A stretch of 60,000 bases of DNA, taken from the NCBI RefSeq assembly GCF_026151205.1, contig NC_087073.1, forward strand, positions 11,689,578 through 11,749,577. The letters run 5' to 3'. Positions 3,376 to 41,276 of the stretch are shown piece by piece; position 1 is the stretch's first letter, and the number at the start of each line of letters is the position of its first letter. Position numbers and translations under genes: made by a program. The notes under the pieces are model-generated. The model ran no database searches, had not been told where the DNA came from, and worked only from the letters and a program-made list of their open reading frames with translations. Source of the DNA: Bolinopsis microptera. Taxonomy: Eukaryota > Ctenophora > Tentaculata > Lobata > Bolinopsidae.

Positions 3376-3760
3376 AGTAGAAGCAAAGCAAAAAACCAAC
3401 AAACTGGTTACGAAATCGTATTAAGAGTTTTAACTTAATAATCCTAAAATTGTGGCCTACCGATTATTTGAATTCCAATCATTTTAATCTCCCCACATTC
3501 TCACTTTTTTATAGCCATTGATTAGTCTGCTAGAACCTGCAAACTTTTCGAATTTAGAGCCAAATATTTGGCTAATTAGATTAGATTAGATTATATTTTA
3601 TGGCCTTCTGACTTTGATCACATTAAAGTTATCACAGGATCTTTAAAACCGGCTTTAGCATTTAGGCTATTCACTCCGATAATCGTAACCGATAATTATC
3701 TCCGATAATTCGTTTATAAGAGTTATCTGTTTACTGTTTATTTAGTGTTTATCTAGATAG
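3376..3760. other. Spacer upstream of transporter, no gene seen
   Basis: AT-rich sequence. No coding exon or recognisable element was found; it probably holds the promoter and 5' UTR of the minus-strand transporter. Confidence 0.4.
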
Positions 3761-9100: not shown

Positions 9101-9485
9101 ATAGATTAGATCCTCAGATGTGTGCTGCAGGAAGGGAGGTGGTGGTTTGTTGTCTCTCAGAACCGTCTGAGAGTGGGATATGGTATTTTAATTATTGATA
9201 CAACGTTACACATTCCAACATGCTTAGCAGTTAGCGCCAAAATTAATTTAGCACTTGAAACATTTCGGTTTTGTTTTGAGTACGCAATAGCCTCGTGATT
9301 ATTAGAAAGAAAATAAAAACTTACACAGTTCTGCAGGAACTCGTTTTCCTTCTCTTCAATATACAGCAGCCACTCAGTCATCAGCCTCTTTGCTGTAAAC
9401 TTTTGAGCGAGAGAAAGCCACTCTTGAACACTGTGACCATTTACTATGGCAAACCACAGAGAATCTGTAAAGGGATCGTCCCAGT
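6196..9485 (-). CDS. RGS22: RGS22-like protein, exons 18-24 (C-terminal half)
   Basis: Minus-strand exons 9325-9485, 9028-9166, 8630-8829, 7348-8163, 7024-7191, 6602-6924 and 6196-6502 (stop at 6196-6198), all with GT-AG borders and continuous phase. Exon 18 starts after a CACAG acceptor in phase 1 and encodes WDDPFTDSLWFAIVNG...EWLSLAQKF, the end of an RGS fold. The 816-bp exon 21 carries the last RGS domain (LLAKFRNFLLVNE...SILFYQIVESL). Exon 23 carries IRKLHDTGLFERGMF...LFPLLTYFWKKFC, matching the position and pattern of the human RGS22 segment ending in FKFWPQFC. The C-terminus is Gly/Pro-rich. RGS22 is a multi-RGS protein mainly of ciliated and germ cells. The complete model is 1,320 aa, against about 1,264 in human. 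Each exon boundary is inference from consensus sites. Confidence 0.8.
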
Positions 9486-9995
9486 CTGTGAATCTGACGG
9501 GATGGAGAATTAGAGAAGTTAGGATATCTAAGCAGAAATGAACAACTACTATCTTCTATCTTAATATGTACGTATTACGATTTCTGATCTTATTCACAAC
9601 AGCATGATATTATATAATACATCAATTAATACATTATTATATTAAGTTACCCAAATTGATCATTGAGTATTGAAATTTTAAGCCCTATCAGCCTCTGATA
9701 TAATGCAAAATGTGGTTGAGTCTTGTTTTTTGTTTTGTGTGATCCCTACTGTTTAGTTAAACACAATAACAGTCACTAAGGGTTAAAGTTCGCCTCTACC
9801 AAGTTGGAAAGCATTTTAGGTGTCGAGGTAACTATGTTTTATATTTATAACAAGGAAAAGGCTCTTATCAGGAAAGGCATTATTCATACAATAAAAATAC
9901 AAACACAATACAAATTTTTACCTAAGAAACATTTCAATTATGCGACTCTAAATAATAAAATAATTTTCCGATCCGGATTTTGCATTCTCAGTTGA

Positions 9996-12491
9996 TCATG
10001 TCTGGGTGGTGATGGGAATGTTGTTGGGGCTCAACACATCATACGCTAAATACTTCCCTTTATTTCTATCTGCTATTTTGTCTCTGAGCTTCTCCATTTC
10101 CTTCACCATATCCTTAATATGGCCCTCCTGCTCCAGTGAAACGGCCAAGTTTTCTCCCAGATATCCTTGCTTATTTTCTGCTTTTGTTTCCACATAAAAT
10201 CGCTCGATTGGAGAGAAGTTACCTAGTACCTCTGTGATGACCATGGTTGCCAGAGCGACTTCGTATTGTGGGAGACTGTTCATGATATGCTCCATGGTGA
10301 TCACATCGTCCTGTTCTGGTGGTGGCAGTCTGAGACTTGGAGGTGCATTAACAATGTAGCCCAGGTATTTGTTGATCTGGAAGTTTACACCTGTGTGGAA
10401 ACAGGACACATTGAAAATGAGCGCAGTGAGATATTCAACCAACTTCTCTTTAGTTTCGATAGATTCTGGGAAACCTGCTCCACCGAACCCTTCAAAGCCA
10501 GGACCTCTAATCTCTTCCACAAACTTCTGCAATTCGGTATCTTTAGAGACGTCATCTTCGCTCAGATAGGACAGATCCACCATGTTTTTAACGTAGTCTA
10601 GTAGGATCATCCACAAATCCTCTGAATCATCCCTGAAAAGGAAGTTTGGCAGATCTTTAAGTCCTCTGCTTTCAAAGTCTTTAGGAATGACTAAGTTTTC
10701 GTAGTCCAGCTCTTTGCAGCAGTTTACCAGTAATTTAGGCAGATCATCAGCGGAGGACATAAATGTAGCAAAGGCATTACCTGTTGGACTGATTAGAACT
10801 TTCCTTGCTTGCATATTGATTCCGATGATTCCTTGGAAATGGGGCTGTAGAAGTCTAAACAAGGGATGAGCACTTGGTAGATTGCGATACATAGACGAGG
10901 CAAACACCTCATTCATCGCATGTGCTCTTATGTAGTGAGTTCCAATGCTGTAGATTCCCCAATCAGCACATCTGAAATACATTTTGGCTAAGAGCCAAGA
11001 CAAGTACTTCGGATCAGTCTTACTGGTATCGTTCTCGGCTGGGGCCCACCAGGTTTGTTTTTCCCCATCATTCTTGTTTTCTAAACGTATCAAGACGGGG
11101 ACAAAAGATTCGTCCTCAGGACGCGTGTTACTCTGGAAAAGTAGACAGTCCGCCTGAACTACGTACCATGTTTGTGTTGTTCCAGTTATAAATTTGCTCT
11201 TCTTACCGCCATGGCCGATATCATTCAGTATTTCTGAATTCAATATTTCAAAAAGCCGTCCATCTTTGATGACATCATTAAGATCTTCTCCGTCAATTGC
11301 ATATGTTGGGAGCATGTCTTTGTCAATTCCCTCCTGCCATGTGTCGGAAAGCGTTTCCACTCTCCTTAACCTCGTCGAATTCGGACCCTGAATGATTTGA
11401 CGGGCAAACTCTGCGTCGTGATGGAAAATTTGGCCCACCTTCAGACCGTCTTGAATGCTTTTTTTATTCCATCCTACAGATTCACCCATCTCAGTGAAGG
11501 AGTCCGCATAGTCGGTGAAGGATCTGAAGTGGCGTTGAGGAGTCCCGCCGCAACAGCAACTACACAGTGTACACACTTTGTTGAGGATAACAGGACATAT
11601 CAGCTTATTCTCACCTGCGTCGATCGATCCTTCGAAGGCATCCAGCCATGCATCTCGGAATTGGAGGAACCTAGGCAGGTTCTTGTACTCCCCACCCTTC
11701 ACATCAATCCAGCTAGGTAATGGTCCTACTTTAACCGCGTTCTCCCAGGGCATCATTGAATGGGTGATGTTGTGATCTTTCTCCCTGGCTCTCAATATGA
11801 AATCTTCCGTTTCATTGTGTTTCAGAGTACCGTGTCCTGGCGTTGCATAAAGATATGGAACACATCTTTGCTGGGGAGTGCCACCTTCTGTACATCCACA
11901 ACAGGCACTACGGGGGGTGTATGGACTAAGGTAGTTGTGTATGGGGAACCTGTAGGTTTTATTATCCCACATCACTGTTACCTCTCGAATGTAGAGAGGG
12001 TCTTCCGTGCAAATGCAGCTGCATGAACCTCCATCCAACTCAATTTTCAGAAGTTTTGGCTCGCCAACTCGTTCCTCTTTCGGTACCCAAAACTCAACGT
12101 CCACCGTTCCCTCGCTGTGAGAAGAGAATTTTTCCTTTATCTTCAGTATTTTCGACTGACAAACCTTTGCTTCAGGATCGTCGTTAGCACCGGGGTTAAT
12201 GGTGATCTTTATAGTGCCGTCGATCTTTTTTATCTTGTTGGCTTGTGGCAACATGGAACCAGTGTGAAGGTACACACGATAGACATCACTGCTGACCGCA
12301 AATACTGCTCTACTTGGAGCTGATCCCATTATCTGTAAATAACCGAAGATACAGCCGATTAAAATGCAGCTCACACTGAACAAAACGTAATTGCCACAAA
12401 ACCGATCAAAATGTCGTTCTAACAATCTTTGCACGTGCACTTGCGCGTTCAACACCGTTACCATGGTTATTATGCAGCTTCCTTTTTTCAC
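9996..12491 (-). CDS. PLAT-lipoxygenase family protein, probably inactive as an iron dioxygenase
   Basis: Single-exon gene of 831 codons. Residues 34-54 form a hydrophobic anchor. An internal Met55 (ATG at 12329) follows a good acceptor-like TTATTTACAG, so a shorter form starting MGSAPSRAV is possible. A PLAT-like beta domain spans roughly 65-200. Cys-rich patches CCGC and CSCCCGG each precede GGTPQ, and the lipoxygenase domain runs from about 250 to 831. Family landmarks are clear: WLLAKMYFRCAD, MYRNLPSAHPLFRLLQPH, VNAPPSLRLPPP. Lipoxygenases oxygenate polyunsaturated fatty acids using iron held by H, H, H, N and the C-terminal I. Aligned to 5-LOX, the first His is Tyr514 (YSIGTH), His519, His699 and Asn703 remain, and the C-terminal residue is Thr831, not Ile. 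Family confident; activity doubtful. Confidence 0.9.
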   Translation of the reverse strand: MKKGSCIITMVTVLNAQVHVQRLLERHFDRFCGNYVLFSVSCILIGCIFGYLQIMGSAPSRAVFAVSSDVYRVYLHTGSMLPQANKIKKIDGTIKITINPGANDDPEAKVCQSKILKIKEKFSSHSEGTVDVEFWVPKEERVGEPKLLKIELDGGSCSCICTEDPLYIREVTVMWDNKTYRFPIHNYLSPYTPRSACCGCTEGGTPQQRCVPYLYATPGHGTLKHNETEDFILRAREKDHNITHSMMPWENAVKVGPLPSWIDVKGGEYKNLPRFLQFRDAWLDAFEGSIDAGENKLICPVILNKVCTLCSCCCGGTPQRHFRSFTDYADSFTEMGESVGWNKKSIQDGLKVGQIFHHDAEFARQIIQGPNSTRLRRVETLSDTWQEGIDKDMLPTYAIDGEDLNDVIKDGRLFEILNSEILNDIGHGGKKSKFITGTTQTWYVVQADCLLFQSNTRPEDESFVPVLIRLENKNDGEKQTWWAPAENDTSKTDPKYLSWLLAKMYFRCADWGIYSIGTHYIRAHAMNEVFASSMYRNLPSAHPLFRLLQPHFQGIIGINMQARKVLISPTGNAFATFMSSADDLPKLLVNCCKELDYENLVIPKDFESRGLKDLPNFLFRDDSEDLWMILLDYVKNMVDLSYLSEDDVSKDTELQKFVEEIRGPGFEGFGGAGFPESIETKEKLVEYLTALIFNVSCFHTGVNFQINKYLGYIVNAPPSLRLPPPEQDDVITMEHIMNSLPQYEVALATMVITEVLGNFSPIERFYVETKAENKQGYLGENLAVSLEQEGHIKDMVKEMEKLRDKIADRNKGKYLAYDVLSPNNIPITTQT

Positions 12492-12599: not shown

Positions 12600-12777
12600 T
12601 TCAAATTTGAGAACGAATCCTACGCTGAGATGAATCCTGTGAACGAATCCTACGTTGAGATGAATCCTGCGAACGAATCCTAGGCTGAGATGAACCTTGT
12701 GACCGAAACCTACGTTGAGATGAAACCTGTGACCGAATGCTACCTTTAGATGAATCCTGTGAACGAATGCCACTCCT
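12600..12777 (+). pseudogene. Receptor array copy A: tail-repeat remnant
   Basis: The upstream sequence ttgcactattcaaatttga, shared with the 5' flanks of the other copies, joins directly to about five 30-bp units of the cytoplasmic repeat; the whole ectodomain and TM region is deleted. The units contain in-frame TAG stops (cctaggctgag, cctttagatg). The block ends in the same gccactcctga junction as copy B. It sits immediately upstream of the lipoxygenase 5' end, back to back with it. Confidence 0.85.
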
Positions 12778-12850
12778 GAACACTGCGACCATTTACTATG
12801 GCAAACCACAGAGAATCTTTAAAGGGATCATCCCAGTCTGTGAATCTGAC
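12770..12850 (-). pseudogene. RGS22 exon 18 fragment (unit A)
   Basis: A copy of the 5' part of exon 18 (source near 9414-9495), including the splice acceptor. The minus strand encodes WDDPFKDSLWFAIVNG followed by RSVQEW, then runs into the antisense of the receptor repeat. Further source-intron sequence continues to about 12960. Similar fragments follow copies B, C and D. Confidence 0.85.
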
Positions 12851-12974
12851 GGGACGGAGAATTAGAGAAGTTAGGATATCTAAGCAGAAATGAACAGCTA
12901 CTATATTGTATCTGAATATGTACGTATTACGATTTCTGATCTTATCCACTACGGCATGATATCATATAATTAAT

Positions 12975-13293
12975 CAGTGGCGTAACAAAGGGCCCTGCCG
13001 ACCCCACTGCGGGGTGGGGGGGGGGTGCCAAAATCCAAATCGTCGTTTGTATGTGGGACAATTTGGAAAAACTTAACTACGGACACGGTCTACCGTCGCG
13101 TACTAGCAAAACTGCGCGTTTTGCTCTAGAAACACCATTTTTTAGAGATTTTACCGGTGTATCCTCTAAAATCATCTAATTTGTTCAATTTTAGGGAGGG
13201 GCGCCAATAGGGGAGGGCGACCAACAGGGGCGCTTTTTCAGCGGGGGGGGGGGGGGGGGGGGGGGGGCGCCAACAGGCAACGTTACGCCACTG
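12975..13293. mobile_element. hAT-type MITE, array copy A
   Basis: Terminal inverted repeats CAGTGGCGTAAC / GTTACGCCACTG are flanked by a perfect 8-bp direct repeat TAATTAAT (12967-12974 and 13294-13301), the hallmark of hAT insertion. The interior is GC-rich and contains a run of about 27 G (13241-13267). No transposase. The same insertion lies in units B, C and D. Confidence 0.85.
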
Positions 13294-13539
13294 TAATTAA
13301 TAATACATTTTGACATTATATTAACTATCAAGTTACCCGAATTGATCATTGAGTATTGAAAGTTTAACTTTAAGCCCTATCAGCCTCTGATATAATGTAA
13401 AATGTGGTTGAGTCTTGTTTTTTGTTTTGTGTGATCCCTACTGTTTAGTTAACGCAATATCACTAAGGGTTGAAGTTCGCCTCTCCACCAAGTTGGAAGG
13501 CATTTTAGGTGTCGAGGTAACTATGTTTTATATATAACT

Positions 13540-14100
13540 AGAAAGCCCGTGGTCACAGGGAGGAAGCTAATGGTATTCTTTGGCAGTCAGTTTTTATCAC
13601 ATCAAAAAATATCCGCCACAACCGAAGATACAGCCGATTTAAATGTTAAACACTTTAAACACAACGTATAATTACCACAAAGCCGATCAAAATGCCGTTT
13701 CAACAATCATTGCACGTGCACGTGCGCGTTCACCACCGTAGCTGCTATGCAACCTTTTGGTTTTTACCTAACTTCCTACTTCTAATCAAATTTGCACGTG
13801 GCCGGTCGTACATACATTCTACATACATAAATAATTCTCTGAATTATAGTAGAGACTAGAAAACCCGTGGCCACAGGGAGGAACCTAATAGTATTCTTTG
13901 GAAGTCAGTTTTAATCGTGTCAAAAAGTATTCATCCCCACCGAAGATACAGCCAAATAAAATGTTGCTCGTACTAAACACAGCATAATATCAACAAAACC
14001 GATTAAAATGACGTTAAAACAATCATTGCACGTGAATGTGCGCGTTTCAACCCTCGTTACTATGGTTACTATGCAACTACCTATTTCTCGTCTAATTTGC
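13540..14100. repeat. Tandem duplicate of lipoxygenase 5' region
   Basis: Two direct copies, about 13540-13850 and 13853-14100, each start ctagaaa(g/a)cccgtgg(t/c)cacagggagg. Each then contains a degenerate version of the lipoxygenase 5' end (source 12330-12570: ccgaagatacagcc, ttgcacgtgcac, gcgcgttca). No lipoxygenase frame survives. The second copy abuts the truncated receptor copy B. Confidence 0.8.
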
Positions 14101-14104
14101 AATT

Positions 14105-15701
14105 GCAAATAGAAAAAAACGATGCCACCAATTTTCGGATGAAATTTGTGAAAATGCAGGCGAAATTGCTGCTGACACATACTCCTCACCAGGATGTCAA
14201 ACCATTAACTCTGGTCAATTCAACAATAACTGACCTAATATCATCATATGATGCAGTGATGACTATAGGAATACAGTTTCGTTTGGAAGATACCGTGTTT
14301 TCTTATTATTATACGGACGATTATACAAAAAGGGAGTCTAATTATGTAAAATCACAATCCAAAGACGAGTTCCTTACGCACTTTATGGAGCCATCGAAAA
14401 CTTTGTTAGAAGGAAAAGGGAGCAAATATTTTGCAGAGGAAATAATAAGAGACTTATCAGCTACATGGTGCGGAGATAAACTTACGTTGTCATTGTGTCC
14501 ATGTTCTGAACCAGTGATAACAGAACTAGAATGGAACAATGAAACTAGTGTTCTGAATTGCAGTGCAGTGAGTATAGAAGGGAATGAGAATATGGCTATA
14601 ACGTGGACAGAGAATGGTAACCATGTCCAGGATAACAGAACAGAGACATCTTCTATTGGAAATTTGATGAAAACGTCGATGTTACACAACGTGACCTCTA
14701 TAAAGGTATCAGGTAATTACACGTGCACAGTATCATTAAAATCAGACAGTGACACTTTAAATGTTACACGCACTAAAAGGATGCCCGCACTGCCAACTGA
14801 TGGTAAGGAAGAGAAACCAACTGATGATAACAAAGAAAATGAGGAAGATAAAGGCGTAGAGGAGGGAGTAAAGAAAGAAGATGACGAGATCCATGAAAAA
14901 GGCATTAGTTCAAAAGATCTCATAATAATCGCCGCAGTAGTGAGTGGCTTGTTGGTGATTATAGTCCTGAACTGTGTTGGCGTGATAAAATTAGTCCGTC
15001 ACTTTTCTCAACAGAACTCTCGATCTCCTGAAGACGAGGGTGTCGAACTAGAACCTGTATACAACAGATTAGATCCTGAGTTGATGGCGATAAACAGAGG
15101 TAACCGATCTGGTGAGACAGGAGTAGTAAGCAATGTTTATGCTCCCATTGCTATGGTATACCATGTTCCAGAAGAGGAGCTCTACGCTGAGATGAATCCT
15201 GTGAACAAATCCTACGTTGAGATGAATCCTGCGAACGAATACTACGTTGAGATGAATCCTTTGAACGAATGCTACGTTGAGATGAATCCTGTGAACAAAT
15301 CATACTCTGAGATGAATCATGTGAACGAATCATACGCTGAGATGAATCCTGTGAACAAATCCTACGTTGAGATGAATCATGTGAACGAATGCTACGTTGA
15401 AATGAATCCTGTGAACAAATCCTACGTTGAGATGAATCCTGCGAACGAATACTACGTTGAGATGAATCCTGTGAACGAATGCTACGTTGAGATGAATCCT
15501 GTGAACGAATCATACTCTGAGATGAATCATGTGAACGAATCATACGCTGAGATGAATCCTGTGAACGAATGCTACGTTGAGATGATCCCTGTGAACGAAT
15601 CCTACGCTGAGATGAATACTGTGAACGAATCCTACGCTGAGACGAATCCTGTGAACGAATGCTACGTTGAGATGAATCCTGTGAACGAATGCCACTCCTG
15701 A
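14105..15701 (+). pseudogene. Receptor array copy B: Ig/TM/YxxM-repeat, 5' truncated
   Basis: Homology to intact copies D and E begins at caaatagaaaaa near 14105; upstream is duplicated lipoxygenase 5' sequence, so the start codon, signal peptide and about 70 N-terminal residues are missing. The first in-frame ATG is at 14139 and has no signal peptide after it. Downstream the frame is open through the Ig domain (LNCSAVS...ITWTENG...SGNYTCTV), the acidic linker, the TM segment (LIIIAAVVSGLLVIIVLNCV) and 17 tail repeats, 16 of them with YxxM. It ends ...NECHS at 15701, a stop codon contributed by antisense RGS22 exon sequence. It may be transcribed, but surface export is unlikely. Confidence 0.8.
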
Positions 15702-15765
15702 ACACTGTGACCATTTACTATGGCAAACCACAGAGAATCTGTAAAAGGATCATCCCAGTCTGTGA
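15691..15765 (-). pseudogene. RGS22 exon 18 fragment (unit B)
   Basis: Same fragment as at 12770, minus strand; it keeps FTDWDDPFTDSLWFAIVNG and the CACAG acceptor. It overlaps the last bases of receptor copy B on the opposite strand. Confidence 0.85.
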
Positions 15766-15834
15766 ATTTGACGGAATATGTACGTATTACGATTTCTGAT
15801 CTTATCCACGACGTCATGATATCATATATTTAAT

Positions 15835-16112
15835 CAGTGGCGTAACGAATGGGGGTGGGGGGCGCCATCTTAGGGAGGCGCGCAATCGTCGTTTGAATGT
15901 GGGACATTTTGGAAAAACTTAACTACGGTCTACAGTACAAGCAAAAGTGCGCGTTTTGCTCTAGAAACACACTTTTTTAGAGATTTTACCGGTGTATCCT
16001 CTAAAATCATCTAATTTTTTCAATTTTAGGGAGGGGTGCCAATAGGGGAGGGGGGCCAACAGGGGCGCTTTTTCAGCGGGGGGAGGGGGCAACAAGCAAC
16101 TTTACGCCACTG
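15835..16112. mobile_element. hAT-type MITE, array copy B
   Basis: Same element as at 12975, with TIRs CAGTGGCGTAACG / TTTACGCCACTG. The flanking 8-mers are tatttaat and taattaat, one mismatch. Position within the unit is identical to copy A, so it was co-duplicated rather than re-inserted. Confidence 0.8.
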
Positions 16113-16563
16113 TAATTAATAATACATTTTGACATTATATTAACTATTAAGTTACCCAAATTGATCATTGAGTATTGAAAGTTTAAGCCCTATCAGTCTC
16201 TGATATAATGCAAAATGTGGTTGAGTCTTGTTTTTTGTTTTGTTTGATCCCTACTGTTTAGTTAACGCAATAACAGTCACTAAGGGTCGAAGTTCACCTC
16301 TCCACCAAGTTGGAAGGCATTTTAGGTGTCGATGTTTTATATATAAATATAATACAGGATTGCCAAGTTATACTTGCACTATTCAAATTCAAGATATATC
16401 AATTTTTAATTTAGATAAATGATTGGAAGATTATGTAGTTGTAAACGGGCTGAAGAGAATTGGGACCTGCTAAACACTTGTCAAATAAAAGCATGTAACA
16501 AATTCGACCGTGGGAAACTATTACGACTGAGTGACAGATTTAGAACCACACAGCTCAATAGTC

Positions 16564-18475
16564 ATGATACTATTTTGTTGTGTTTTACTGCTGGCATCTC
16601 CTTTTAACATTTTTGCATTTTGCAATCTCAAGAACTGTTATAACATTTCATCGAGTGAACTTGGATCGGGTGGTTTTGAAGTGGGTGCAATAGAGAGTTT
16701 TGATCTTGAAACGGTCGATATGGTGGTTCTGAATGGACTCGTAGAAGAAAATTGCAGTCTTTCATTGAAGTGCACCTCAAATATGAAAAACGATGCCACC
16801 AATTTCCGGATGGAATTTGTGAAAATGCAGGCGAAATTGCTGCTGACACATACTCCTATGAAGACTAATCTAAACTTTCAACTAACTCTGGTCAATTTAA
16901 CAATAACTGACCTAATATCATCATATGATGCAGTGATGACTATAGGAATACAGTTTCGTTTGGAAGATACCGTGTTTGCCTTTTATTATACGGACGAATA
17001 TGAAAAAAGGGAGTCTAATTATGTAAAATTACAACCCGACGAAAATTTCCTTACGCACTTTATGGAGCCATCGAAAACTTTGTTAGAAGGAAAAGGGAGC
17101 AAATATTTTGCAGAGGAAATAATAAGAGACTTATCAGCTACAGGGTGCGGAGATAAACTTACGTTGTCATTGTGTCCATGTTCTGAACCAGTGATAACAG
17201 AACTAGAATGGAACAATGAAACTAGTGTTCTGAATTGCAGTGCAGTGAGTATAGAAGGGAATGAGAATATGGCTATAACGTGGACAGAGAATGGTAACCA
17301 TGTCCAGGATAACAGAACAGAGACATCTTCTATTGGAGATTTGATGAAAACGTCGATGTTACACAACGTGACCTCTATAGTCTATAAAGGTATCAGGTAA
17401 TTACACGTGCACAGTATCATTAACATCAGACAGTGACACTTTGAATGTTACACACACTAAAAGGATACCCGCACTTGCTCCAGAAGAGAAACCAACTGAT
17501 GGAAAAGAAGAGAAACCAACTGATGATAAAAAAGAAAATGAGGAAGATAAAGGTGTAGAGGAGGGAGTAAAGAAAGAAGATGACGAGATCCATGAGAAAG
17601 GCATTAGTTCAAAAGATCTCATAATAATCGCCGCAGTAGTGAGTGGCTTGTTGGTGATTACAGTCCTGAACTGTGTTGGCGTGATAAAATTAGTCCGTCA
17701 CTTTTCTCAACAGAACTCTCGATCTCCTGATGACGAGGGTGTCGAAATAGAACCTGTCTACAACAGATTAGATCCTGAGTTGATGGCGATAAACAGAGGT
17801 AACCGATCTGGTGAGACAGGAGTAGTGAGAAATGTTCCCATTGCTATGGTATACCATGTTCCAGAAGAAGAGCTATACGTTGAGATGAATCCTGTGAACG
17901 AATCCTACGCTGAGATGAATCCTGCGAACGAATACTACGTTGAGATGAATCCTGTGAACGAATGCTACGTTGAGATGAATCCTGTGAACGAATGCTACGT
18001 TGAGATGAATCCTGTGAACGAATCATACTCTGAGATGAATCATGTGAACGAATCATACGCTGAGATGAATCCTGTGAACGAATGCTACGTTGAGATGAAT
18101 CCTGTGAACGAATCCTACGCTGAGATGAATCCTGCGAACGAATACTACGTTGAGATGAAACCTGTGAACGAATGCTACGTTGAGATGAATCCTGTGAACG
18201 AATCATACGCTGAGATGAATCCTGTGAACGAAAGCGACGTTGAGATGAATCCTGTGAACGAATCCTACGCTGAGATGAATCCTGCGAACGAATACTACGT
18301 TGAGATGAATCCTGTGAACGAATGCTACGTTGAGATGAATCCTGTGAACGAATCATACTCTGAGATGAATCATGTGAACGAATCATACGCTGAGATGAAT
18401 CCTGTGAACGAATGCTACGTTGAGATGATCCCTGTGAACGAATCCTACGCTGAGACGAATCCTACGGTGAGATGA
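16564..18475 (+). pseudogene. Receptor array copy C: Ig/TM/YxxM-repeat, frameshifted
   Basis: Near-duplicate of copy D, starting ATG ATA CTA (MILFCCVLLLASPFNIFA signal peptide). The frame is open to about 17380. There a 7-bp partial duplication (tctatagtctata against tctata in D) shifts the frame and stops it at 17400, inside the Ig domain just before SGNYTC. The correct frame resumes and runs from before 17441 through the linker, TM and 20 tail repeats to 18475. It carries one tail unit fewer than D, lacking a YSEMNHVNES unit. It is a pseudogene as read, although a single sequencing or assembly error could be responsible. Confidence 0.8.
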
Positions 18476-18550
18476 ATACTGTGAACGAATCCTACGCTGA
18501 GACGAATCCTGTGACCGAATGCTACGTGGAGATGAATCCTGTGAACAAAT

Positions 18551-18627
18551 GCCACTCCTGAACACTGTGACCATTAATATGGCAAACCACAGAGAATCTG
18601 TAAAAGGATCATCCCAGTCTGTGAATT
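18551..18627 (-). pseudogene. RGS22 exon 18 fragment (unit C)
   Basis: Minus-strand fragment with FTDWDDPFTDSLWFAI and the acceptor. A small deletion (ccattaatatgg against ccatttactatgg) changes the downstream frame, which then stays open into the antisense of the tail repeat. Confidence 0.85.
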
Positions 18628-18693
18628 TGACGGAATATGTACGTATTACGATTTCTGATCTTATCCACGACGTCATGATATCATATATTTAAT

Positions 18694-18972
18694 CAGTGGC
18701 GTAACGAATGGGGGTGGGGGGCGCCATCTTAGGGAGGCGCGCAATCGTCGTTTGAATGTGGGACAATTTGGAAAAACTTAACTACGGTCTACAGTACTAG
18801 CAAAACTGCGCGTTTTGCTCTAGAAACACACTTTTTTAGAGATTTTACCGGTGTATCCTCTAAAATCATCTAATTTTTTCAATTTCAGGGAGGGGTGCCA
18901 ATAGGGGAAGGGGGCCAACAGGGGCGCTTTTTCAGCGGGGGGAGGGGAGCAACAAGCAACTTTACGCCACTG
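18694..18972. mobile_element. hAT-type MITE, array copy C
   Basis: Same co-duplicated element, TIRs CAGTGGCGTAACG / TTTACGCCACTG, interior ggcgccatcttaggg. Confidence 0.8.
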
Positions 18973-19428
18973 TAATTAATAATACATTTTGACATTATAT
19001 TAACTATTAAGTTACCCAAATTGATCATTGAGTATTGAAAGTTTAAGCCCTATCAGTGTCTGATGTAAGGCAAAATGTGGTTGAGTCTTGTTTTTTGTTT
19101 TGTTTGATCCCTACTGTTTAGTTAACGCAATAACAGTCACTAAGGGTTGAAGTTCACCTCTCCACCAAGTTGGAAGGCATTTTAGGTGTCGAGGTAACTA
19201 TGTTTTATATATAAATATAATACAGGATTGCCAAGTTATACTTGCACTATTCAAATTTAAGATGTATCAATTTTAATTTAGATAAATGATTGGCAGATTA
19301 TGTAGTTGTAAACGGGAAAAAGATAATTGGGACCTGCTAAACACTTTTCAAATAAAAGCATGTAACAAGATTCGACCGTGGGAAACTACAACTGAGTGAC
19401 AGATTGAGAACCACACAGCTTAATAGTC

Positions 19429-21357
19429 ATGAGACTATTTTGTTGTGTTTTACTGCTGGCATCTCCTTTTAACATTTTTGCATTTTGCACTCTCGAGAAC
19501 TGTTATAACATTTCATCGAGTGAACTTGGATCGGGTGGTTTTGAACTGGGTGCGATAGAGAATTTTGATCTTGAAACAGTCAACACGGTGGTTCTGAATG
19601 GACTCGTAGAAGAAAATTGCAGTCTTTCATTGAAGTGCACTTCAAATAGAAAAAACGATGCCACCAATTTCCGGATGAAATTTGTGAAAATGCAGGCGAA
19701 ATTGCTGCTGACACATACTCCTCACCAGGATGTCAAACCATTAACTCTGGTCAATTCAACAATAACTGACCTAATATCATCATATGATGCAGTGATGAGT
19801 ATAGGAATACAGTTTCGTTTGGAAGATACCGTGTTTGCCTATTATTATACGGACGATTATGAAAAAAGGGAGTCTAATTATGTAAAATTACAACCCGACG
19901 AAAATTTCCTTACGCACTTTATGGAGCCATCGAAAACTTTGTTAGAAGGAAAAGGGAGCAAATATTTTGCAGAGGAAATAATAAGAGACTTATCAGCTAC
20001 AGGGTGCGGAGATAAACTTACGTTGTCATTGTGTCCATGTTCTGAACCAGTGATAACAGAACTAGAATGGAACAATGAAACTAGTGTTCTGAATTGCAGT
20101 GCAGTGAGTATAGAAGGGAATGAGAATATGGCTATAACGTGGACAGAGAATGGTAACCATGTCCAGGATAACAGAACAGAGACATCTTCTATTGGAAATT
20201 TGATGAAAACGTCGATGTTACACAACGTGACCTCTATAAAGGTATCAGGTAATTACACGTGCACAGTATCATTAACATCAGACAGTGACACTTTGAATGT
20301 TACACATACTAAAAGGATACCCGCACTTGCTCCAGAAGAGAAACCAACTGATGGAAAAGAAGAGAAACCAACTGATGATAAAAAAGAAAATGAGGAAGAT
20401 AAAGGTGTAGAGGAGGGAGTAAAGAAAGAAGATGACGAGATCCATGAGAAAGGCATTAGTTCAAAAGATCTCATAATAATCGCCGCAGTAGTGAGTGGCT
20501 TGTTGGTGATTATAGTCCTGAACTGTGTTGGCGTGATAAAATTAGTCCGTCACTTTTCTCAACAGAACTCTCGATCTCCTGATGACGAGGGTGTCGAAAT
20601 AGAACCTGTCTACAACAGATTAGATCCTGAGTTGATGGCGATAAACAGAGGTAACCGATCTGGTGAGACAGGAGTAGTGAGAAATGTTCCCATTGCTATG
20701 GTATACCATGTTCCAGAAGAAGAGCTATACGTTGAGATGAATCCTGTGAACGAATCCTACGCTGAGATGAATCCTGCGAACGAATACTACGTTGAGATGA
20801 ATCCTGTGAACGAATGCTACGTTGAGATGAATCCTGTGAACGAATGCTACGTTGAGATGAATCCTGTGAACGAATCATACTCTGAGATGAATCATGTGAA
20901 CGAATCATACGCTGAGATGAATCCTGTGAACGAATGCTACGTTGAGATGAATCCTGTGAACGAATCCTACGCTGAGATGAATCCTGCGAACGAATACTAC
21001 GTTGAGATGAAACCTGTGAACGAATGCTACGTTGAGATGAATCCTGTGAACGAATCATACTCTGAGATGAATCATGTGAACGAATCATACGCTGAGATGA
21101 ATCCTGTGAACGAAAGCGACGTTGAGATGAATCCTGTGAACGAATCCTACGCTGAGATGAATCCTGCGAACGAATACTACGTTGAGATGAATCCTGTGAA
21201 CGAATGCTACGTTGAGATGAATCCTGTGAACGAATCATACTCTGAGATGAATCATGTGAACGAATCATACGCTGAGATGAATCCTGTGAACGAATGCTAC
21301 GTTGAGATGATCCCTGTGAACGAATCCTACGCTGAGACGAATCCTACGGTGAGATGA
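19429..21357 (+). CDS. Ig-domain membrane receptor with tandem YxxM tail, copy D (intact)
   Basis: Intronless 642-aa type I membrane protein. Residues 1-18 form a signal peptide (MRLFCCVLLLASPFNIFA). Residues 19-205 are an unrecognised Cys-containing module (C64, C70, C193, C202, C204) with several N-glycosylation sites. Residues 207-285 form an Ig domain (C223, W238, and SGNYTC with C278). Residues 300-345 are a charged linker with KPTD repeats, and 348-371 the TM helix. The cytoplasmic tail from 434 to the end has 21 units of a 10-residue repeat, consensus SYAEMNPVNE; 19 contain YxxM and the exceptions are DVEM and YAET. YxxM binds the SH2 domains of PI3-kinase p85 when phosphorylated, as in CD28, CD19 and IRS proteins, so PI3K recruitment is a strong inference. 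YSEMNHVNES recurs every six units (60 residues). Ligand unknown. Confidence 0.85.
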   Translation: MRLFCCVLLLASPFNIFAFCTLENCYNISSSELGSGGFELGAIENFDLETVNTVVLNGLVEENCSLSLKCTSNRKNDATNFRMKFVKMQAKLLLTHTPHQDVKPLTLVNSTITDLISSYDAVMSIGIQFRLEDTVFAYYYTDDYEKRESNYVKLQPDENFLTHFMEPSKTLLEGKGSKYFAEEIIRDLSATGCGDKLTLSLCPCSEPVITELEWNNETSVLNCSAVSIEGNENMAITWTENGNHVQDNRTETSSIGNLMKTSMLHNVTSIKVSGNYTCTVSLTSDSDTLNVTHTKRIPALAPEEKPTDGKEEKPTDDKKENEEDKGVEEGVKKEDDEIHEKGISSKDLIIIAAVVSGLLVIIVLNCVGVIKLVRHFSQQNSRSPDDEGVEIEPVYNRLDPELMAINRGNRSGETGVVRNVPIAMVYHVPEEELYVEMNPVNESYAEMNPANEYYVEMNPVNECYVEMNPVNECYVEMNPVNESYSEMNHVNESYAEMNPVNECYVEMNPVNESYAEMNPANEYYVEMKPVNECYVEMNPVNESYSEMNHVNESYAEMNPVNESDVEMNPVNESYAEMNPANEYYVEMNPVNECYVEMNPVNESYSEMNHVNESYAEMNPVNECYVEMIPVNESYAETNPTVR

Positions 21358-21431
21358 ATACTGTGAACGAATCCTACGCTGAGACGAATCCTGTGACCGA
21401 ATGCTACGTTGAGATGAATCCTGTGAACGAA

Positions 21432-21508
21432 TGCCACTCCTGAACACTGTGACCATTAATATGGCAAACCACAGAGAATCTGTAAAAGGATCATCCCAGT
21501 CTGTGAAT
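21432..21508 (-). pseudogene. RGS22 exon 18 fragment (unit D)
   Basis: Same fragment and same small deletion as in unit C. Between the receptor stop (21357) and this fragment lie about three further tail-repeat units left out of frame. Confidence 0.85.
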
Positions 21509-21575
21509 TTGACGGAATATGTACGTATTACGATTTCTGATCTTATCCACGACGTCATGATATCATATATTTAAT

Positions 21576-21854
21576 CAGTGGCGTAACGAATGGGGGTGGG
21601 GGGCGCCATCTTAGGGAGGCGCGCAATCGTCGTTTGAATGTGGGACAATTTGGAAAAACTTAACTACGGTCTACAGTACTAGCAAAACTGCGCGTTTTGC
21701 TCTAGAAACACACTTTTTTAGAGATTTTACCGGTGTATCCTCAAAAATCATCTAATTTTTTCAATTTCAGGGAGGGGTGCCAATAGGGGAGGGGGGCCAA
21801 CAGGGGCGCTTTTTCAGCGGGGGGAGGGGAGCAACAAGCAACTTTACGCCACTG
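21576..21854. mobile_element. hAT-type MITE, array copy D
   Basis: Fourth co-duplicated copy, TIRs as in the others. Confidence 0.8.
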
Positions 21855-22310
21855 TAATTAATAATACATTTTGACATTATATTAACTATTAAGTTACCCA
21901 AATTGATCATTGAGTATTGAAAGTTTAAGCCCTATCAGTGTCTGATATAATGCAAAATGTGGTTGAGTCTTGTTTTTTGTTTTGTTTGATCCCTACTGTT
22001 TAGTTAACGCAATAACAGTCACTAAGGGTTGAAGTTCACCTCTCCACCAAGTTGGAAGGCATTTTAGGTGTCGAGGTAACTATGTTTTATATATAAATAT
22101 AATACAGGATTGCCAAATTATACTTGCACTATTCAAATTTAAGATGTATCAATTTTAATTTAGATAAATGATTGGCAGATTATGTAGTTGTAAACGGGAA
22201 AAAGATAATTGGGACCTGCTAAACACTTGTCAAATAAAAGCATGTAACAAGATTCGACCGTGGGAAACTACAACTGAGTGACAGATTGAGAACCACACAG
22301 CTTAATAGTC

Positions 22311-24044
22311 ATGAGACTATTTTGTTGTGTTTTACTGCTGGCATCTCCTTTTAACATTTTTGCATTTTGCACTCTCGAGAACTGTTATAACATTTCATCG
22401 AGTGAACTTGGATCGGGTGGTTTTGAACTGGGTGCGATAGAGAATTTTGATCTTGAAACAGTCAACACGGTGGTTCTGAATGGACTCGTAGAAGAAAATT
22501 GCAGTCTTTCATTGAAGTGCACTTCAAATAGAAAAAACGATGCCTCCAATTTCCGGATGGAATTTGTGAAAATGCAGGCGAAATTGCTGCTGACACATAC
22601 TCTTCACCAGAATATCAAACCATTAACTCTGGTCAATTCAACAATAACTGACCTAACATCATCATATGATGCAGTGATGACTATAGGAATACAGTTTCGT
22701 TTGGAAGATACCGTGTTTGCTTATTATTATACGGACGATTATACAAAAAGGGAGTCTAATTATGTAAAATTACAACCCGACGAAAATTTCCTTACGCACT
22801 TTGTGGAGCCATCGAAAAGGTTGTTAGAAGGAAAAGGGAGCAAATATTTTCCAGAGGAAATAACCAGAAACTTATCAGCTACAGGGTGTGGAGATAAACT
22901 TACGTTGTCATTGTGTCCATGTTCTGAACCAGTGATAACAGAACTAGAATGGAACAATGAAACTAGTGTTCTGAAATGTAGTGCAGTGAGTATAGCAGAG
23001 AATGAGAATATGGCTATAACGTGGACAGATAATGGTAACCATGTCCAGGATAACAGAACAGAGCTGAGAGATTTGATGAAAACTTCAATGTTACACAACG
23101 TGACCTCTAGAAAAGAATCAGGTAATTACACGTGCACAGTATCATTAACATCAGACAGTGAAATTAATGTTACACGCACTAAAAGGATACCCAAACTTGC
23201 TCAAGAAGAAAAGCCAACTGATGGAAAAGAAGAGAAGCCAACTGATGGTAAGGAAGAGAAACCAACTGATGATAACAAAGAAAATGAAGAAGATAAAGGT
23301 GTAGAGGAGGGAGTAAAGAAAGAAGATGACGAGATCCATGAGAAAGGCATTAGTTCAAAAGCTCTCATAATAATCGCCGCAGTAGTGAGTGGCTTGTTGG
23401 TGATTATAGTCCTGAACTGTGTTGGCGTGATAAAATTAGTCCGTCACTTTTCTCAACAGAACTCTCGATCTCCTGAAGACGAGGGTGTCGAAATAGAACC
23501 TGTCTACAACAGATTAGATCCTGACTTGATGGCGATAAACAGAGGTAACCGATCTGGTGAGACAGGAGTAGTAAGAAATGTTCCCATTGCTATGGTATAC
23601 CATGTTCAAGAAGAGGAGCTATACGCTGAGATAAACCCTGTGAACGAATCCTACGCTGGGATGAATCCTGTGAACGAATCATACGCTGGGATGAATCCTG
23701 TGAATGAATGCTACGTTGAGATGATCCCTGTGAAAGAATCCTACGTTGAGATAAACCCTGTGAACGAATCCTACGCTGAGATGAATCCTGTGAACGAATC
23801 CTACGCTGAGATGAATCCTGTGAACGAATGCGACGTTGAGATGAATCCTGTGAAAGAATCCTACGTTGAGATGATCCCTGTGAACGAATGCTACGTTGAG
23901 ATGAACCTTGCGACCAAATTCTACGTTGAGATGAATCCTGTGAACGAATCCTACGCTGAGATGAATCCTGGCACTGAATCTTATGTTGAGACGAACCTTG
24001 GGGCTGATTCCTACGATAAAGTTAACATTGAGACAAAAAAATAG
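22311..24044 (+). CDS. Ig-domain membrane receptor with tandem YxxM tail, copy E (intact, most diverged)
   Basis: Intronless, 577 aa, starting 2,882 bp after copy D. It has the same signal peptide and architecture. The ectodomain differs at scattered positions (LHQNIKP, EPSKRLLEGKG, RDLMKTS), the linker has an extra KPTDGKEE unit, and the TM is unchanged. The tail has only 14 units and is more degenerate. It includes YAEI, YAGM, YVEI, DVEM and YVET and ends with an aperiodic YDKVNIETKK; nine units keep YxxM. As the last unit in the array it lacks the downstream RGS22 fragment and MITE. The private C-terminus and lower tail homogeneity suggest it escaped the recent homogenisation of C and D. 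Likely a plasma-membrane PI3K-coupled receptor, by motif inference. Confidence 0.85.
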   Translation: MRLFCCVLLLASPFNIFAFCTLENCYNISSSELGSGGFELGAIENFDLETVNTVVLNGLVEENCSLSLKCTSNRKNDASNFRMEFVKMQAKLLLTHTLHQNIKPLTLVNSTITDLTSSYDAVMTIGIQFRLEDTVFAYYYTDDYTKRESNYVKLQPDENFLTHFVEPSKRLLEGKGSKYFPEEITRNLSATGCGDKLTLSLCPCSEPVITELEWNNETSVLKCSAVSIAENENMAITWTDNGNHVQDNRTELRDLMKTSMLHNVTSRKESGNYTCTVSLTSDSEINVTRTKRIPKLAQEEKPTDGKEEKPTDGKEEKPTDDNKENEEDKGVEEGVKKEDDEIHEKGISSKALIIIAAVVSGLLVIIVLNCVGVIKLVRHFSQQNSRSPEDEGVEIEPVYNRLDPDLMAINRGNRSGETGVVRNVPIAMVYHVQEEELYAEINPVNESYAGMNPVNESYAGMNPVNECYVEMIPVKESYVEINPVNESYAEMNPVNESYAEMNPVNECDVEMNPVKESYVEMIPVNECYVEMNLATKFYVEMNPVNESYAEMNPGTESYVETNLGADSYDKVNIETKK

Positions 24045-24420
24045 ATTTTACGTTCCAGTGATCTCTCGGTCTGGGTAGTTGTGAAATCATATTTTGAGGT
24101 AAGCGGATCGAATAGGCTTAGAGTTAGGATTTGGGTTACGGTTAATGGAAGCGATACTAGATAGGGATTGGTCCAATAGGGATTCGATCCGCCAATCAAT
24201 TTTGACGTGGTATTCCAGAAAATATATTTTTCGTACGATTTAGCAATTAAGACTGACTTTGAGTTGAGACTCAGGTAAGTTTGTTTACACGTATTTTGGA
24301 CTGGTGCCATGTTTATTTTTGTCCTTTGGTGTGCCATAGTGTTATAGTTTTTTTGTAATATTTGGATCTTTTTTTTTCCGGCTTTTTATTATTTGGGTGA
24401 ATTAGTTTATATACATTATA

Positions 24421-25766
24421 CAGGGTGGGCCAAAAGTCAGTGGGCATACGTTGGCCTTAATAGCTCAGTCATTGAGTGCCCAATTGAAATAATTCTTTCT
24501 GGTATGACTTACTACCACCACTGGTTCGAAGAATTTGACAAATCGAAAAATATTCGAGTTCATTTTTTTCAAATGAAGGTTCATTTTTGCATTTATATTA
24601 TTTGATAGTGTGGATATACTAGATAGTCGGATCAAGCTAAATTTAAGCTCGATCATGGCCAAATTGTGTTTGGCCATTCGAATTACGTTTGTCCTGAAAA
24701 AATTATAGGTGACCCCGTTAACCACCCGTTAAACATTATGGGAATTGTTAAGGGTGCCCAATTAAGGTGTCGTGTCACGGTGTCATATAATCACCCAGTC
24801 AATTTTGTTAACGAGATACACAAAATGCTTGATAACTTCGTCATTTCTAATCCGTTTTGCCTCATGACGACGGAATGCCATCTGCAAAGCAACAGCTATC
24901 AAATATAAAACACGGCGGAGCTATTAAGGGGGGGGGGGGGTTCACCCTGATTTTTTTGTGAAACTTGGTTTCGAGATAGCAGTTGACCAACAAACTAGGA
25001 CCGGTGACCGAACTTTTGAGGGGGTCCCGGACCCCAACCGCCAAACGGTGCCCGCGGGGCAGCCACGCCCATATTTGGTCCAAATTAGGCCCAATTTAGC
25101 CAAATACCCTCAACATGCCCAAAACCCAGATTTTAGGTGCTTTACTTGTAGCTAGTGGTCCCCTGAACTCGTATATGAATTTTCATCAAGATTGGACAAA
25201 AAATGGCTGAGTTATGAGCCAAAAACTATATGCCCATATTTGGGTATACGCACCAGATTTGGTCGATTTTGGCCCATAAATTGGTCAAATATCAATATTT
25301 TTGAATGAAACCAACTTTATATGAAAGGTAAGCTTATACTACACATTCTCTATGATTATCAGCTCAGTATCTACCTAACTGTGGATTCTGTGTTCAATTA
25401 ATCGCAAAAAATGAACAAAATCGCCCATATCTCAGTTCGCGATATTTGCGAAACTGATTTCGTTCAAAACAATAGAACTCAATAGGGTTTCAATATTTTT
25501 ACATGAAATTTTCAGAATCAACGTAGAATCGCATTTCGACCTTAAGTTTTAATATGGAATTTTGAGTTAGGCCTTTAAAAAAATTTGGCGGCCAAATTCT
25601 GAAATTTGCCGGGCATTTTTCAGAATTTGGCCGCCAAATTTTTTTAAAGGCCTAACTCGAACCAGTGGTGGTAGTAAGTCTATACCAGAAAGAATTATTT
25701 CAATTGGGCACTTAGTGACTGAGCTATTTAGGCCAACGTATGCCCACTGACTTTTGGCCCACCCTG
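24421..25766. mobile_element. Non-autonomous TIR transposon (mariner/IS630-like ends)
   Basis: Inverted repeats of roughly 115 bp start CAGGGTGGGCCAAAAGTCAG and end with its complement, bordered by TA on both sides (24419-24420, 25767-25768). No transposase frame is seen. The interior carries a perfect 38-bp inverted repeat (25564-25601 with 25621-25658, 19-nt loop) that abuts the right TIR. TA targets and GGG-type ends fit the Tc1/mariner superfamily. Confidence 0.85.
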
Positions 25767-26377
25767 TATAATATAATGTTTGTTTTCGGACTATTTTGGG
25801 TAACAGGAAAATTTGTATGAACGTTTTTTGCTTCTAGGATGAAAAATGGTTTATCCGAAGATGTCAAATCGTGGTTTAAGAGTAGGATATGTGATTATGC
25901 TCATATAGTTTCAAGTTTGATGATTTTATTTGCATACGCCATACGATTGTCTGATTATCTCCTCAATTTACTAAAATAACTTTTGGAGTTTGGACTCCGC
26001 TTAAAATCTACCAAAAGTAGTGAAATGTGTTTACTTGCTGCCGTCAGGATGAGTGAATTTGTACAAGAGTGAGTGAACTTCTTTTTCAAGATTTTCCAAG
26101 TTGACAGGGAAATTGATCATTCCATCTGAAATTATTGTATATGAGTGTGTAAACTGTAAACTGCAACAACTTCAACAGTTGCTAATCTTTAATCGCTGTG
26201 AGGGTAAATAATTGATTTAAGGGCCTCAGTGGCAAAACATATTTTTGTGCCGATTACCGCCTCCACTAATTTTCCTAATATCAGACCTTGTTTGCCGCCC
26301 TCTGGCCTCTACAACGTTTTTCGCGCCACCCGAACGTTTTTTCCTTCACCATGAATGATGAACAAAGAAAGTGGAAG

Positions 26378-34886: not shown

Positions 34887-36540
34887 TTAGTTATCGTCGA
34901 CTATGATTGCAGTGTAAAATTTGTCATATGAATTGTCGACGGTATAATTAGGGTCTGTTGTTATAGATGAGAGTAGCTGTTTCTTATACGAATCACTAAA
35001 GCTTTTAACATCGGGCAGATTTCGTTGATCTGTTGGAACATTATTCCAACATTTTGCCCCCAAGTATTGAAAGTTTTTATGTGATGTTGATCTATTAACA
35101 TATAGGTTGCAGCTTTCGCCGCTCCTACTACCTCCTGATATGTAACTAAATTTGTTCATAAAGTTTGTAGGACAATTGTCATGGATGATTCTAAACATAT
35201 AATTTGACAGATGGAGTTGTCGTCTAAGATGGAGTGGTAACCATTTCATGTCTCTATAAACATTAAGGCTGCTCTCTGTTTGTGGAACGTTGAGAGCTAT
35301 TTTGGCTACCTTTTTGTACAGAGTGTCAAGTTCAGCAAGTTTTGTCTTGCCAGCTCTACAATAGATCGTGTCTAAATAATCGAATTGTGGCAACATGAGT
35401 GCATTGGCAAACATTTTCCTATATTTAATGGGTAGCAGTGCTTTACTTCTATACATGGCACCAATTCTCTTCATGACCTTCCTAATAATATAATCTACAT
35501 GGCTTTTGAAGTTTAATTTACTATCTAGAATGAGGCCAAGATATTTTGTCTCTTTGCACTCCTTGATTGTGAAAGTTACCTCATTACATTCAATGGTTAA
35601 TTCATCATGTTGATCAACAGAATCAAACAATAGGAATTCAGTCTTCTTTTCATTGAGTGATAATTTATTAACACTGAGCCATTTAAAGATTGTCATAAGT
35701 TCTATTTTCATGTTTATAAATGTGCTTCTGCAGGTTTGATCAAAGAATAGTGCACCATCATCTGCAAATAGAAAGGGCTTAGATAGGTTACAGGCATAAA
35801 TGATGTCATTTATGAAGATACTAAATAATATAGGCCCAATGATGCTTCCTTGTGGTACACCACTCAGAACTTCTAAAAATGAGCTTAGTTTGCCATTGAT
35901 CCTAGTGCATTGATATCTACAAGATAAGAAGTTCTTAAACCAGGTTAAAGCAATGCCACCAATTCCATAATATGCCAATTTTTTAAGCAATATTTCATGA
36001 TTCACTGTGTCAAAGGCCTTCTTAAGATCAAGAAAGATGATTCCTGGTTTATAAGACTTAGATTTACTCATATATATTTCGTCCATCAGATCGTACATCA
36101 AATAAGTTGTGGAGTGATTTTTCCGAAAGCCATATTGATGCCGGATGAAAAGTTTGTTCTCATGTAATCAGTGAGTTGCTTGCCGACAAAGTATTCTATA
36201 AGTTTTCCTACAAGTGGAAGGATGGATATTGGCCTGTAATTATTAGGATCATCTTTCATTCCTGCCTTATGGATGGGAGTTACTCTAGCTTTTTTACAAA
36301 GGGTTGGTACAACACCAGTATTAAGGCTCAAATTGACAATATGGGTAAGTGGCTCAACTATGTATGGTACAGCTTGCTTAAGTAAAAATAGAGGCACATC
36401 GTCATATGAGGCCTTGTCATTCTTGAGCGTTTCGACATACATTAGGATATCAGTTTCATTTATTTCTTGGAATCTATCAAATGAGATGTTAGAAGTTCTA
36501 GGAGGTAAAAAATCAGTAAAACTAACTAAATATGAATGCT
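34887..36540 (-). pseudogene. LINE (CR1/Jockey-type) reverse transcriptase, 5' truncated and frameshifted
   Basis: The minus-strand frame 36101-34887 carries RT blocks IIFLDLKKAFDTVNHEILLK, LSGVPQGSIIGPILFSIFIN and the catalytic FADD (PFLFADDGALFF), then a typical LINE C-terminus. The upstream frame 36530-36160 (NYRPISILPLVGKLIE) is the start of the same RT, joined through a single-base shift near 36160. No endonuclease domain is present; the element is cut at about 36540, where a different LINE begins. Mobile-element origin certain; not functional. Confidence 0.9.
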
Positions 36541-41018: not shown

Positions 41019-41276
41019 TGAAGCTTACCGCTGTCAGCCCCTACTGGATACGAGTCTCCTTAACAGTAGTGGACCCAAATTTGGGATCTGATGGAGTAGT
41101 CTCAACACCAGAGGATTTTACAGCTCAAGCAAAATTAAATTAACATTTGATCACCATTATACCTTTGACTAAACTTTCTAAACAGATTATTATATCAGAT
41201 ATAAACTTTTTTTAAAAGTATTTTGCATTAATTAAATAGGTAAAAATATGAAAAGGTACTTAAAATATTAAAATGT

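Follow-up and report, generated by a model that had tools for sequence, protein, structure and literature searches.

CD28, ICOS, CTLA-4 and CD19 are single-pass Ig receptors that carry one or a few YxxM motifs and are not known to have a tandem decapeptide array. IRS-1, a cytosolic scaffold, contains PH and PTB domains, and the Alr allorecognition receptors of Hydractinia are clustered invertebrate Ig receptors with tyrosine-containing tails; to our knowledge, no comparable tail array occurs in Alr, whose likeness to the genes considered here is one of description. Mouse IRS-1 is described as carrying nine YxxM motifs (PMC9240053) and the p130Cas substrate domain 15 YxxP motifs (PMC2689226), p85 SH2 domains are stated to read YxxM and tandem pYxxM to activate PI3K far above single motifs (PMC3613897), and the ectodomain-coding region of Siglec-11 and Siglec-16 is reported to be kept alike by gene conversion, with relaxed constraint (PMC5701461).

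The window analysed here comprises 60,000 nucleotides of Bolinopsis microptera contig NC_087073.1 (positions 11,689,578 to 11,749,577), and the features of its receptor cluster are listed in Table 1. Copies D and E each encode, in a single frame, a signal peptide, an N-terminal domain, an Ig domain, a stalk, one transmembrane helix and a repeat tail, and are single-pass Ig receptors with a YxxM tail. The preliminary description had presented D and E as whole receptors with this domain order, which was borne out by the open reading frames, Pfam searches and hydropathy, and B and C as broken copies, which they are. Among the longer close copies, eight in number, B, C and P4 (the last from a second cluster described below) are broken.

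Table 1. Receptor copies and related features on the forward strand (positions of the window).
Feature	Position	Strand	Description
Remnants of flanks of an additional duplicated unit	9417..9847	+	three pieces, 87-94% identical
Copy A remnant	12611..12790	+	five decapeptide units, two in-frame stops, end ..NECHS
Copy B	14098..15701	+	5' end of gene gone; partial ectodomain, Ig, stalk, TM, array, ..NECHS stop
Copy B array	15183-15692	+	17 units, 16 YxxM
Copy C	16564..18475	+	reading frame disrupted near 17381-17400
Copy C array	from 17876	+	19 full units and one partial, 18 YxxM
Copy D	19429..21357	+	complete receptor; unbroken 642-aa ORF, Met 19429, stop at 21357
Copy D signal peptide	19429..19488	+	~20 residues; hydropathy peak starting at residue 4; cleavage site not predicted
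Copy D N-terminal extracellular domain	19489..20067	+	no Pfam match
Copy D Ig domain	20068..20304	+	Ig_2, 27.8 bits (cut-off 27)
Copy D transmembrane helix	20473..20529	+	IIIAAVVSGLLVIIVLNCV; hydropathy; no charged residue
Copy D juxtamembrane segment	20590..20727	+	EPVYNRLDPxLMxxNRG motif, common to other tail types
Copy D YxxM array	20728..21354	+	20 full 10-residue units and a 9-residue partial unit; 19 YxxM
Copy E	22311..24044	+	complete receptor; unbroken 577-aa ORF, Met 22311, stop at 24044
Copy E exchange tract	22369..23236	+	ectodomain and first part of stalk; near-identical to cluster at C2:3.20-3.22 Mb
Copy E transmembrane helix	23367..23423	+	hydropathy
Copy E array	23622..24041	+	14 units, 9 YxxM

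The Ig_2 cut-off of 27 bits was narrowly exceeded not only by copy D but also by E (28.5) and B (27.9), the remaining Pfam Ig models stayed below cut-off in these three copies, and no Ig model scored above cut-off in the two pieces of copy C. The hydropathy peaks of D and E were consistent with a signal peptide and a single uncharged transmembrane helix. PH and PTB domains, as expected of an IRS-type scaffold, were absent from D, E, B and both pieces of C by Pfam search. Modelling of the copy E ectodomain with AlphaFold2 from a seven-sequence alignment gave a poor model (mean pLDDT 42.8, pTM 0.39). A sequence search of the PDB with copy E returned one weak match, the Ig domain of FGFR2 (E=0.31), and detected neither CD28 nor CD19, with the caveat that fast-changing Ig domains may evade such a search.

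All YxxM motifs of D (19) and E (9) fall inside the tail. When the tail residues were shuffled 5000 times, on average 2.0 (D) and 0.9 (E) motifs were obtained, with maxima of 7 and 5. Tails of 21 and 14 units had previously been assigned to D and E, and 17 and 20 units to the broken copies B and C; the counts for E and B hold, whereas unit 21 of D and unit 20 of C are incomplete. The maximum of 19 YxxM sites on one single-pass Ig receptor was recovered in the tail of D. Copy E is less regular, five of its 14 units reading YxxI, YxxT, DxxM or YxxV. C and D finish alike, with a frame change (..YAETNPTVR, stop) beyond which three further units lie out of frame. Genome matches to the array consensus, whose counts are lower bounds, numbered at least 25, with at least 23 in this cluster and two on C4; on reading, the latter were rejected as low-complexity repeats. 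No relative was confirmed in viral contigs (23 pattern matches) or prokaryote genomes (29).

A second cluster lies on the same chromosome, 8.5 Mb away; of its five genes (P0-P4), four are close paralogs and P0 is a distant relative. Within the exchange tract of copy E, 6 fixed and 20 shared-variant columns were counted between the clusters, as compared to 142 fixed and no shared columns upstream and 131 fixed and no shared columns downstream (TM and tail); the between-cluster branches sum to 0.02 for the ectodomain and 0.93 elsewhere. The two clusters carry a near-identical ectodomain on two long-diverged TM-tail types. This distribution of variants indicates that the ectodomain was exchanged between the clusters in at least one transfer; since the clusters remain separate in the ectodomain tree (99/99), one transfer suffices and repeated conversion is not established. 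The tails of P0-P4 contain no YxxM; among the seven tails scanned, D and E alone carry this motif. The ITIM consensus, which is short and frequent by chance, is present in three of the four close paralogs (P1, P3 and P4, not P2) and in the distant relative P0; it is absent from the tails of D and E, as is YxN (Grb2 type). No ITAM (YxxL/I x6-12 YxxL/I) was found in any of the seven tails scanned (D, E and P0-P4). With near-identical ectodomains on differing tails, D/E and P1-P4 show the paired-receptor pattern known from Siglec-11/16. The second cluster, which lay outside the view of the preliminary description, recasts what had appeared as a stand-alone receptor family as half of a likely pair. 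In the tails of the second cluster, which end in ..EEGLYEMQTLK (P1-P3) or ..GIYRMGYV (P0), Met occupies +2, and the arrays start with ..EEELYVEM, ..EEELYAEM or ..EEELYAEI; the array may derive from a single tyrosine motif at the tail end.

The genome encodes components that could read such a tail. Two pieces of a p85 nSH2 domain were detected on C6, with 53 and 58% identity to the human domain, the second with a stop at the edge of the match; for one piece, all 23 PDB matches listed were p85 alpha or beta, one of them a fusion. A p85-binding domain of p110 scored above its Pfam cut-off (60.5 bits), and a second one reached 27.8 at a cut-off of 27. Searches for the p85 cSH2 domain and the iSH2 family, both weak tests in split genes, yielded nothing clear in the genome; among 14 controls of the iSH2 search, one archaeon gave a signal below cut-off, which leaves that search uninformative. 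A search for the STING family was likewise negative, as were its controls. LSDAT matches numbered 23; for two of three queries drawn from them the best PDB match was 6co7 (Nematostella TRPM2), for the third it was TRPM4, and a 62-residue segment of 6co7 attained no more than 61% identity in the loci compared, which cover 12 of the 23 matches, so that no sign of Nematostella was obtained.

We put the probability at roughly 0.5 that D and E belong to a paired receptor family of the Ig superfamily and form its PI3K-docking arm, in which the number of docking sites can expand, as judged from the sequences. Both arms would recognise the same ligand, whose binding would lead to phosphorylation of the array by a cytosolic tyrosine kinase and then to docking of p85-p110 at pYxxM. 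The ten-residue spacing could allow the two SH2 domains of one p85 to engage adjacent units. More units would provide more docking capacity and a higher PIP3 output, which is proposed to scale with unit number because docking capacity does, and unit number appears to change fast at the DNA level. The other arm would counter or qualify the signal, with an SHP-type phosphatase as a possible effector. At clearly lower odds, we tentatively propose an immune-type receptor pair in which exchange between the clusters keeps one recognition module for both tail types and the PI3K gain of the activating arm is set by unit number in a fast-changing minisatellite. The earlier proposal of a multivalent PI3K-docking receptor, which would act as a graded amplifier, fits the anatomy, the class IA PI3K parts and the stronger PI3K activation reported for tandem pYxxM (PMC3613897), but the repeat frame carries no sign of codon-level selection.

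This last point bears on a neutral reading of the array as a coding minisatellite. Under this view, a 30-bp unit that chanced to remain open multiplied in the tail of a genuine receptor, in which function lies with the juxtamembrane tyrosine motif alone and YxxM was repeated as a side effect. No codon constraint was seen in the array, with seven of 35 distinct variants synonymous, in line with the 20-22% expected without selection, in a test that is weak because the units are recent copies of one another. The 35 variants were distributed over the codon positions as 9, 14 and 12 (chi-square P=0.57, computed from a count of 9, 14 and 11). Codon-level evidence against selection on the repeat frame, named beforehand as a possible refutation, was obtained in part, within the limits of that test. 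In addition, the array of C equals that of D minus D's unit 12, letter for letter, and in both copies the 3' end of the array has slipped into another frame. Against neutrality, the unit matches the p85 consensus, and the arrays of B, C, D and E are open across 14-20 units, in E despite clear divergence. Of 70 units, 67 retain the Y, 67 the E and 65 the M, against wide variation at positions 2 and 10; this is weak evidence because the units were copied from each other. We regard neutrality as possible, if on the unlikely side; the odds given to the different explanations overlap and need not sum to 1.

It is unlikely that the cluster is merely dying, as a set of unexpressed tandem duplicates with two broken copies, one remnant and one clipped tail. 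Copies A, B and C are indeed broken, C and D share the frame change at the tail end, and their units are almost identical. However, no stop was found in D, E, P1, P2 and P3, where 6.4 were expected (P=0.002, approximate) from ~165 ectodomain substitutions, the summed tree branch lengths of these copies; for D and E taken alone, the lack of stops is uninformative (2.0 expected, P=0.14). Where intact copies differ by gaps, these span whole codons. The base of the tail with stalk and TM is under purifying selection (D vs B: 7 synonymous and 5 nonsynonymous differences, P=0.007), as is the other arm (P1-P3, P=0.007); for E vs D, the synonymous excess in stalk and TM was not significant (P=0.19).

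Very unlikely, in our view, is a role of the repeats as YxxPhi endocytic signals for the AP-2 adaptor, by which the tail would set surface level and not PI3K activity. Each YxxM also satisfies YxxPhi, of which the tails of D and E contain 20 and 13, and YVKM of CTLA-4 does double duty for PI3K and AP-2. However, one or two YxxPhi signals are enough for known AP-2 cargo, an acidic residue at +2 is not the preference of AP-2, and Met occupies +3 in 65 of 70 units. That the tail acts as a sink or brake keeping p85 from productive complexes, or that a different SH2 protein is the true partner, is hardly probable: the number of sites is very high and the genome contains VAV-like (L007) and SHP-like (L008) SH2 exons, as judged from their translations, but the tails offer neither Grb2-type nor ITIM sites, and YxxM is the motif recognised by p85 SH2 domains (PMC3613897).

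If the PI3K-docking reading is correct, D and E provide a natural near-identical receptor pair with 19 and 9 docking sites, respectively, accompanied by broken siblings with 18 (C) and 16 (B), and would address the open question of how multivalent docking affects PI3K output. Provided that the array acts as a coding minisatellite that sets gain, individuals could differ in signal strength through unit number. If the genes are expressed, the system would resemble a paired receptor system with one signalling arm unusually multiplied, combining paired-receptor logic and ectodomain exchange in a family for which no description was found: a search of the open-access literature returned analogies only, in agreement with the preliminary description. 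CD28/ICOS/CTLA-4 and CD19 share the single-pass Ig receptor with tail YxxM but differ in their few, non-tandem sites, and the PDB search with E detected no relation. IRS-1, like the arrays, presents many YxxM along a disordered chain that recruits p85 (PMC9240053), but is no receptor, and its sites are scattered. In p130Cas, one tyrosine docking motif is likewise repeated, with a proposed amplification of a single SH2 output, although it is a cytosolic scaffold that employs YxxP and Crk (PMC2689226). Siglec-11 and Siglec-16, as described in PMC5701461, are likewise paired Ig receptors with similar ectodomains and differently signalling tails; there, conversion was repeated, whereas at least one transfer is indicated here, and unlike in that pair, a YxxM array is present on one tail type and 8.5 Mb separate the two clusters, the likeness being one of pattern.

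The tandem receptor cluster that the preliminary description had placed at 12600-24044 of the window was confirmed as real. It comprises two intact receptors (copies D and E, each in a single frame), two broken copies (B and C) and a copy (A) of which only a tail remnant is left. The tails of B to E carry arrays of ten-residue units, mostly of the YxxM type (see table). The unit counts proposed for E (14) and B (17) were reproduced, whereas those for D (21) and C (20) had to be lowered by one full unit each, the last unit being partial; the proposed maximum of 19 YxxM sites on one receptor was borne out by copy D. When the tails were shuffled 5000 times, YxxM occurred on average 2.0 times in D (maximum 7) and 0.9 times in E (maximum 5).

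Features of the window and of the second receptor cluster (L003-L005, loci extracted from the second cluster)
Feature	Position	Strand	Details
Tandem ORF pair	window 1-1053 and 1945-3420	-	very similar by eye; first truncated by window edge
Flank remnants of a further duplicated unit	window 9417-9847		
Lipoxygenase ORF	window 9996-12491	-	831 aa, single frame, Pfam PF00305
Copy B			17 units, 16 YxxM
Copy C			19 full units and 1 partial, 18 YxxM
Copy D	window 19429-21357		20 full units and 1 partial, 19 YxxM
Copy E	window 22311-24044		14 units, 9 YxxM
Inverted pair	window 24412-24529 and 25657-25775		119 bp, 96% identity
ORFs resembling reverse transcriptases (by eye)	window 34890-36167 and 38292-41024	-	
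Very similar ORFs (by eye)	window 53177-53644 and 57754-58212	-	about 155 aa, 4.5 kb between
Second receptor cluster	C2:3.199-3.223 Mb	-	four close paralogs and one distant relative
P0, distant relative	L003:3073-4419		
P1, close paralog	L003:7796-9337		
P2, close paralog	L005:423-1976		
P3, close paralog	L005:5667-7214		
P4, close paralog	L004:6192-7616		frame broken near end

The lipoxygenase ORF immediately adjoins the receptor cluster, and the inverted pair, which lies 3' of copy E, possibly represents the ends of a small transposon. The complete member of the ORF pair at the window edge was assigned to the amino acid permeases by Pfam. No Pfam match was obtained for the ORF at 53177-53644, and the larger of the reverse transcriptase-like ORFs gave only PHD-like zinc fingers, below the cut-off. 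Elsewhere in the genome (G000), a large set of TRPM-like genes was noted (C11:5324936 and other sites; 23 LSDAT_euk matches, one of them within a 1386-aa open frame).

A signal peptide and a single transmembrane segment were predicted from hydropathy. Copies D, E and B each scored narrowly above the cut-off of the Pfam model Ig_2; the remaining Ig models of Pfam stayed below theirs, and the N-terminal domain matched no Pfam family. Predicting a structure from seven sequences gave a poor model, and a PDB sequence search with E (E-value ≤1) returned a single match, the FGFR2 Ig domain, at an E-value of 0.31. The repeats also matched Extensin_1, at a score far below the Pfam cut-off.

Searching with copy E from the signal peptide through the juxtamembrane region yielded 11 matches, every one on chromosome C2 and belonging either to the window cluster or to the second cluster. 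When aligned, the family members had the motif xx[VI]Y[ND][RK]LDxxxMxxN in common in the juxtamembrane segment. In a tail scan, an ITIM consensus was present in P0, P1, P3 and P4 and absent from P2; it is treated as a lead only.

The segment corresponding to E 22369-23236 was about as similar between the clusters as within them, with 6 columns fixed for a difference between clusters and 20 columns of variation common to both. Downstream, 131 columns were fixed and none shared; upstream, including the signal peptide, the numbers were 142 and 0, although the part before the coding start aligned at only 39-49% and may not be homologous. In the first ectodomain windows, the figures were lowered by the foreign 5' end of B. 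With B and P0 left out, the between-cluster branch sum, in changes per column, was 0.02 for the ectodomain and 0.93 for the remainder. The two clusters still separated in the ectodomain tree (99/99), so that the data establish at least one exchange or transfer between them but not continuous conversion.

Of 21 pairs, broken C included, 17 had ectodomain NG86 ratios of 0.59-0.90, and the extremes over all pairs were 0.40 and 1.54; three disjoint pairs showed a modest synonymous excess (P=0.02). From the stalk to the tail base, the excess gave P=0.007 for D-B, P=0.19 for E-D and P=0.007 for P1-P3 of the other arm, the non-YxxM tail type. The arrays held 35 distinct variants (9, 14 and 12 at codon positions 1, 2 and 3), of which 7 were synonymous (20%, versus 20-22% expected). 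Y, E and M were retained in 67, 67 and 65 of 70 units, respectively, although the units are copies of one another. The array of C equals that of D without one unit, every letter being identical, so array length changes fast.

The genome encodes a p85 nSH2 domain on C6 and a p110 p85-binding domain on C4. We favour a reading of this anatomy, site number, shared ectodomain, pair of tail types and PI3K parts as paired Ig receptors with D and E as the PI3K-docking arm. Both arms would share a ligand; array tyrosines would become phosphorylated and p85 would dock on them through SH2, with signal gain set by the number of units, and the other arm may act with opposing sign.

Searches of a library of open-access papers turned up no receptor tail bearing 19 tandem YxxM; with this coverage, the negative result speaks only weakly against an earlier description. 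Class IA PI3K is reported to be activated far more strongly by tandem pYxxM than by single motifs; the tyrosines of the activating peptide (pY740 and pY751) are eleven residues apart (PMC3613897), those of the present arrays ten. Nine YxxM are described for mouse IRS-1 (PMC9240053), compared with the 19 in tandem in copy D, and fifteen sites for p130Cas, which are of the YxxP rather than the YxxM type (PMC2689226). The shared ectodomain on different tails finds a parallel in Siglec-11/16 (PMC5701461).
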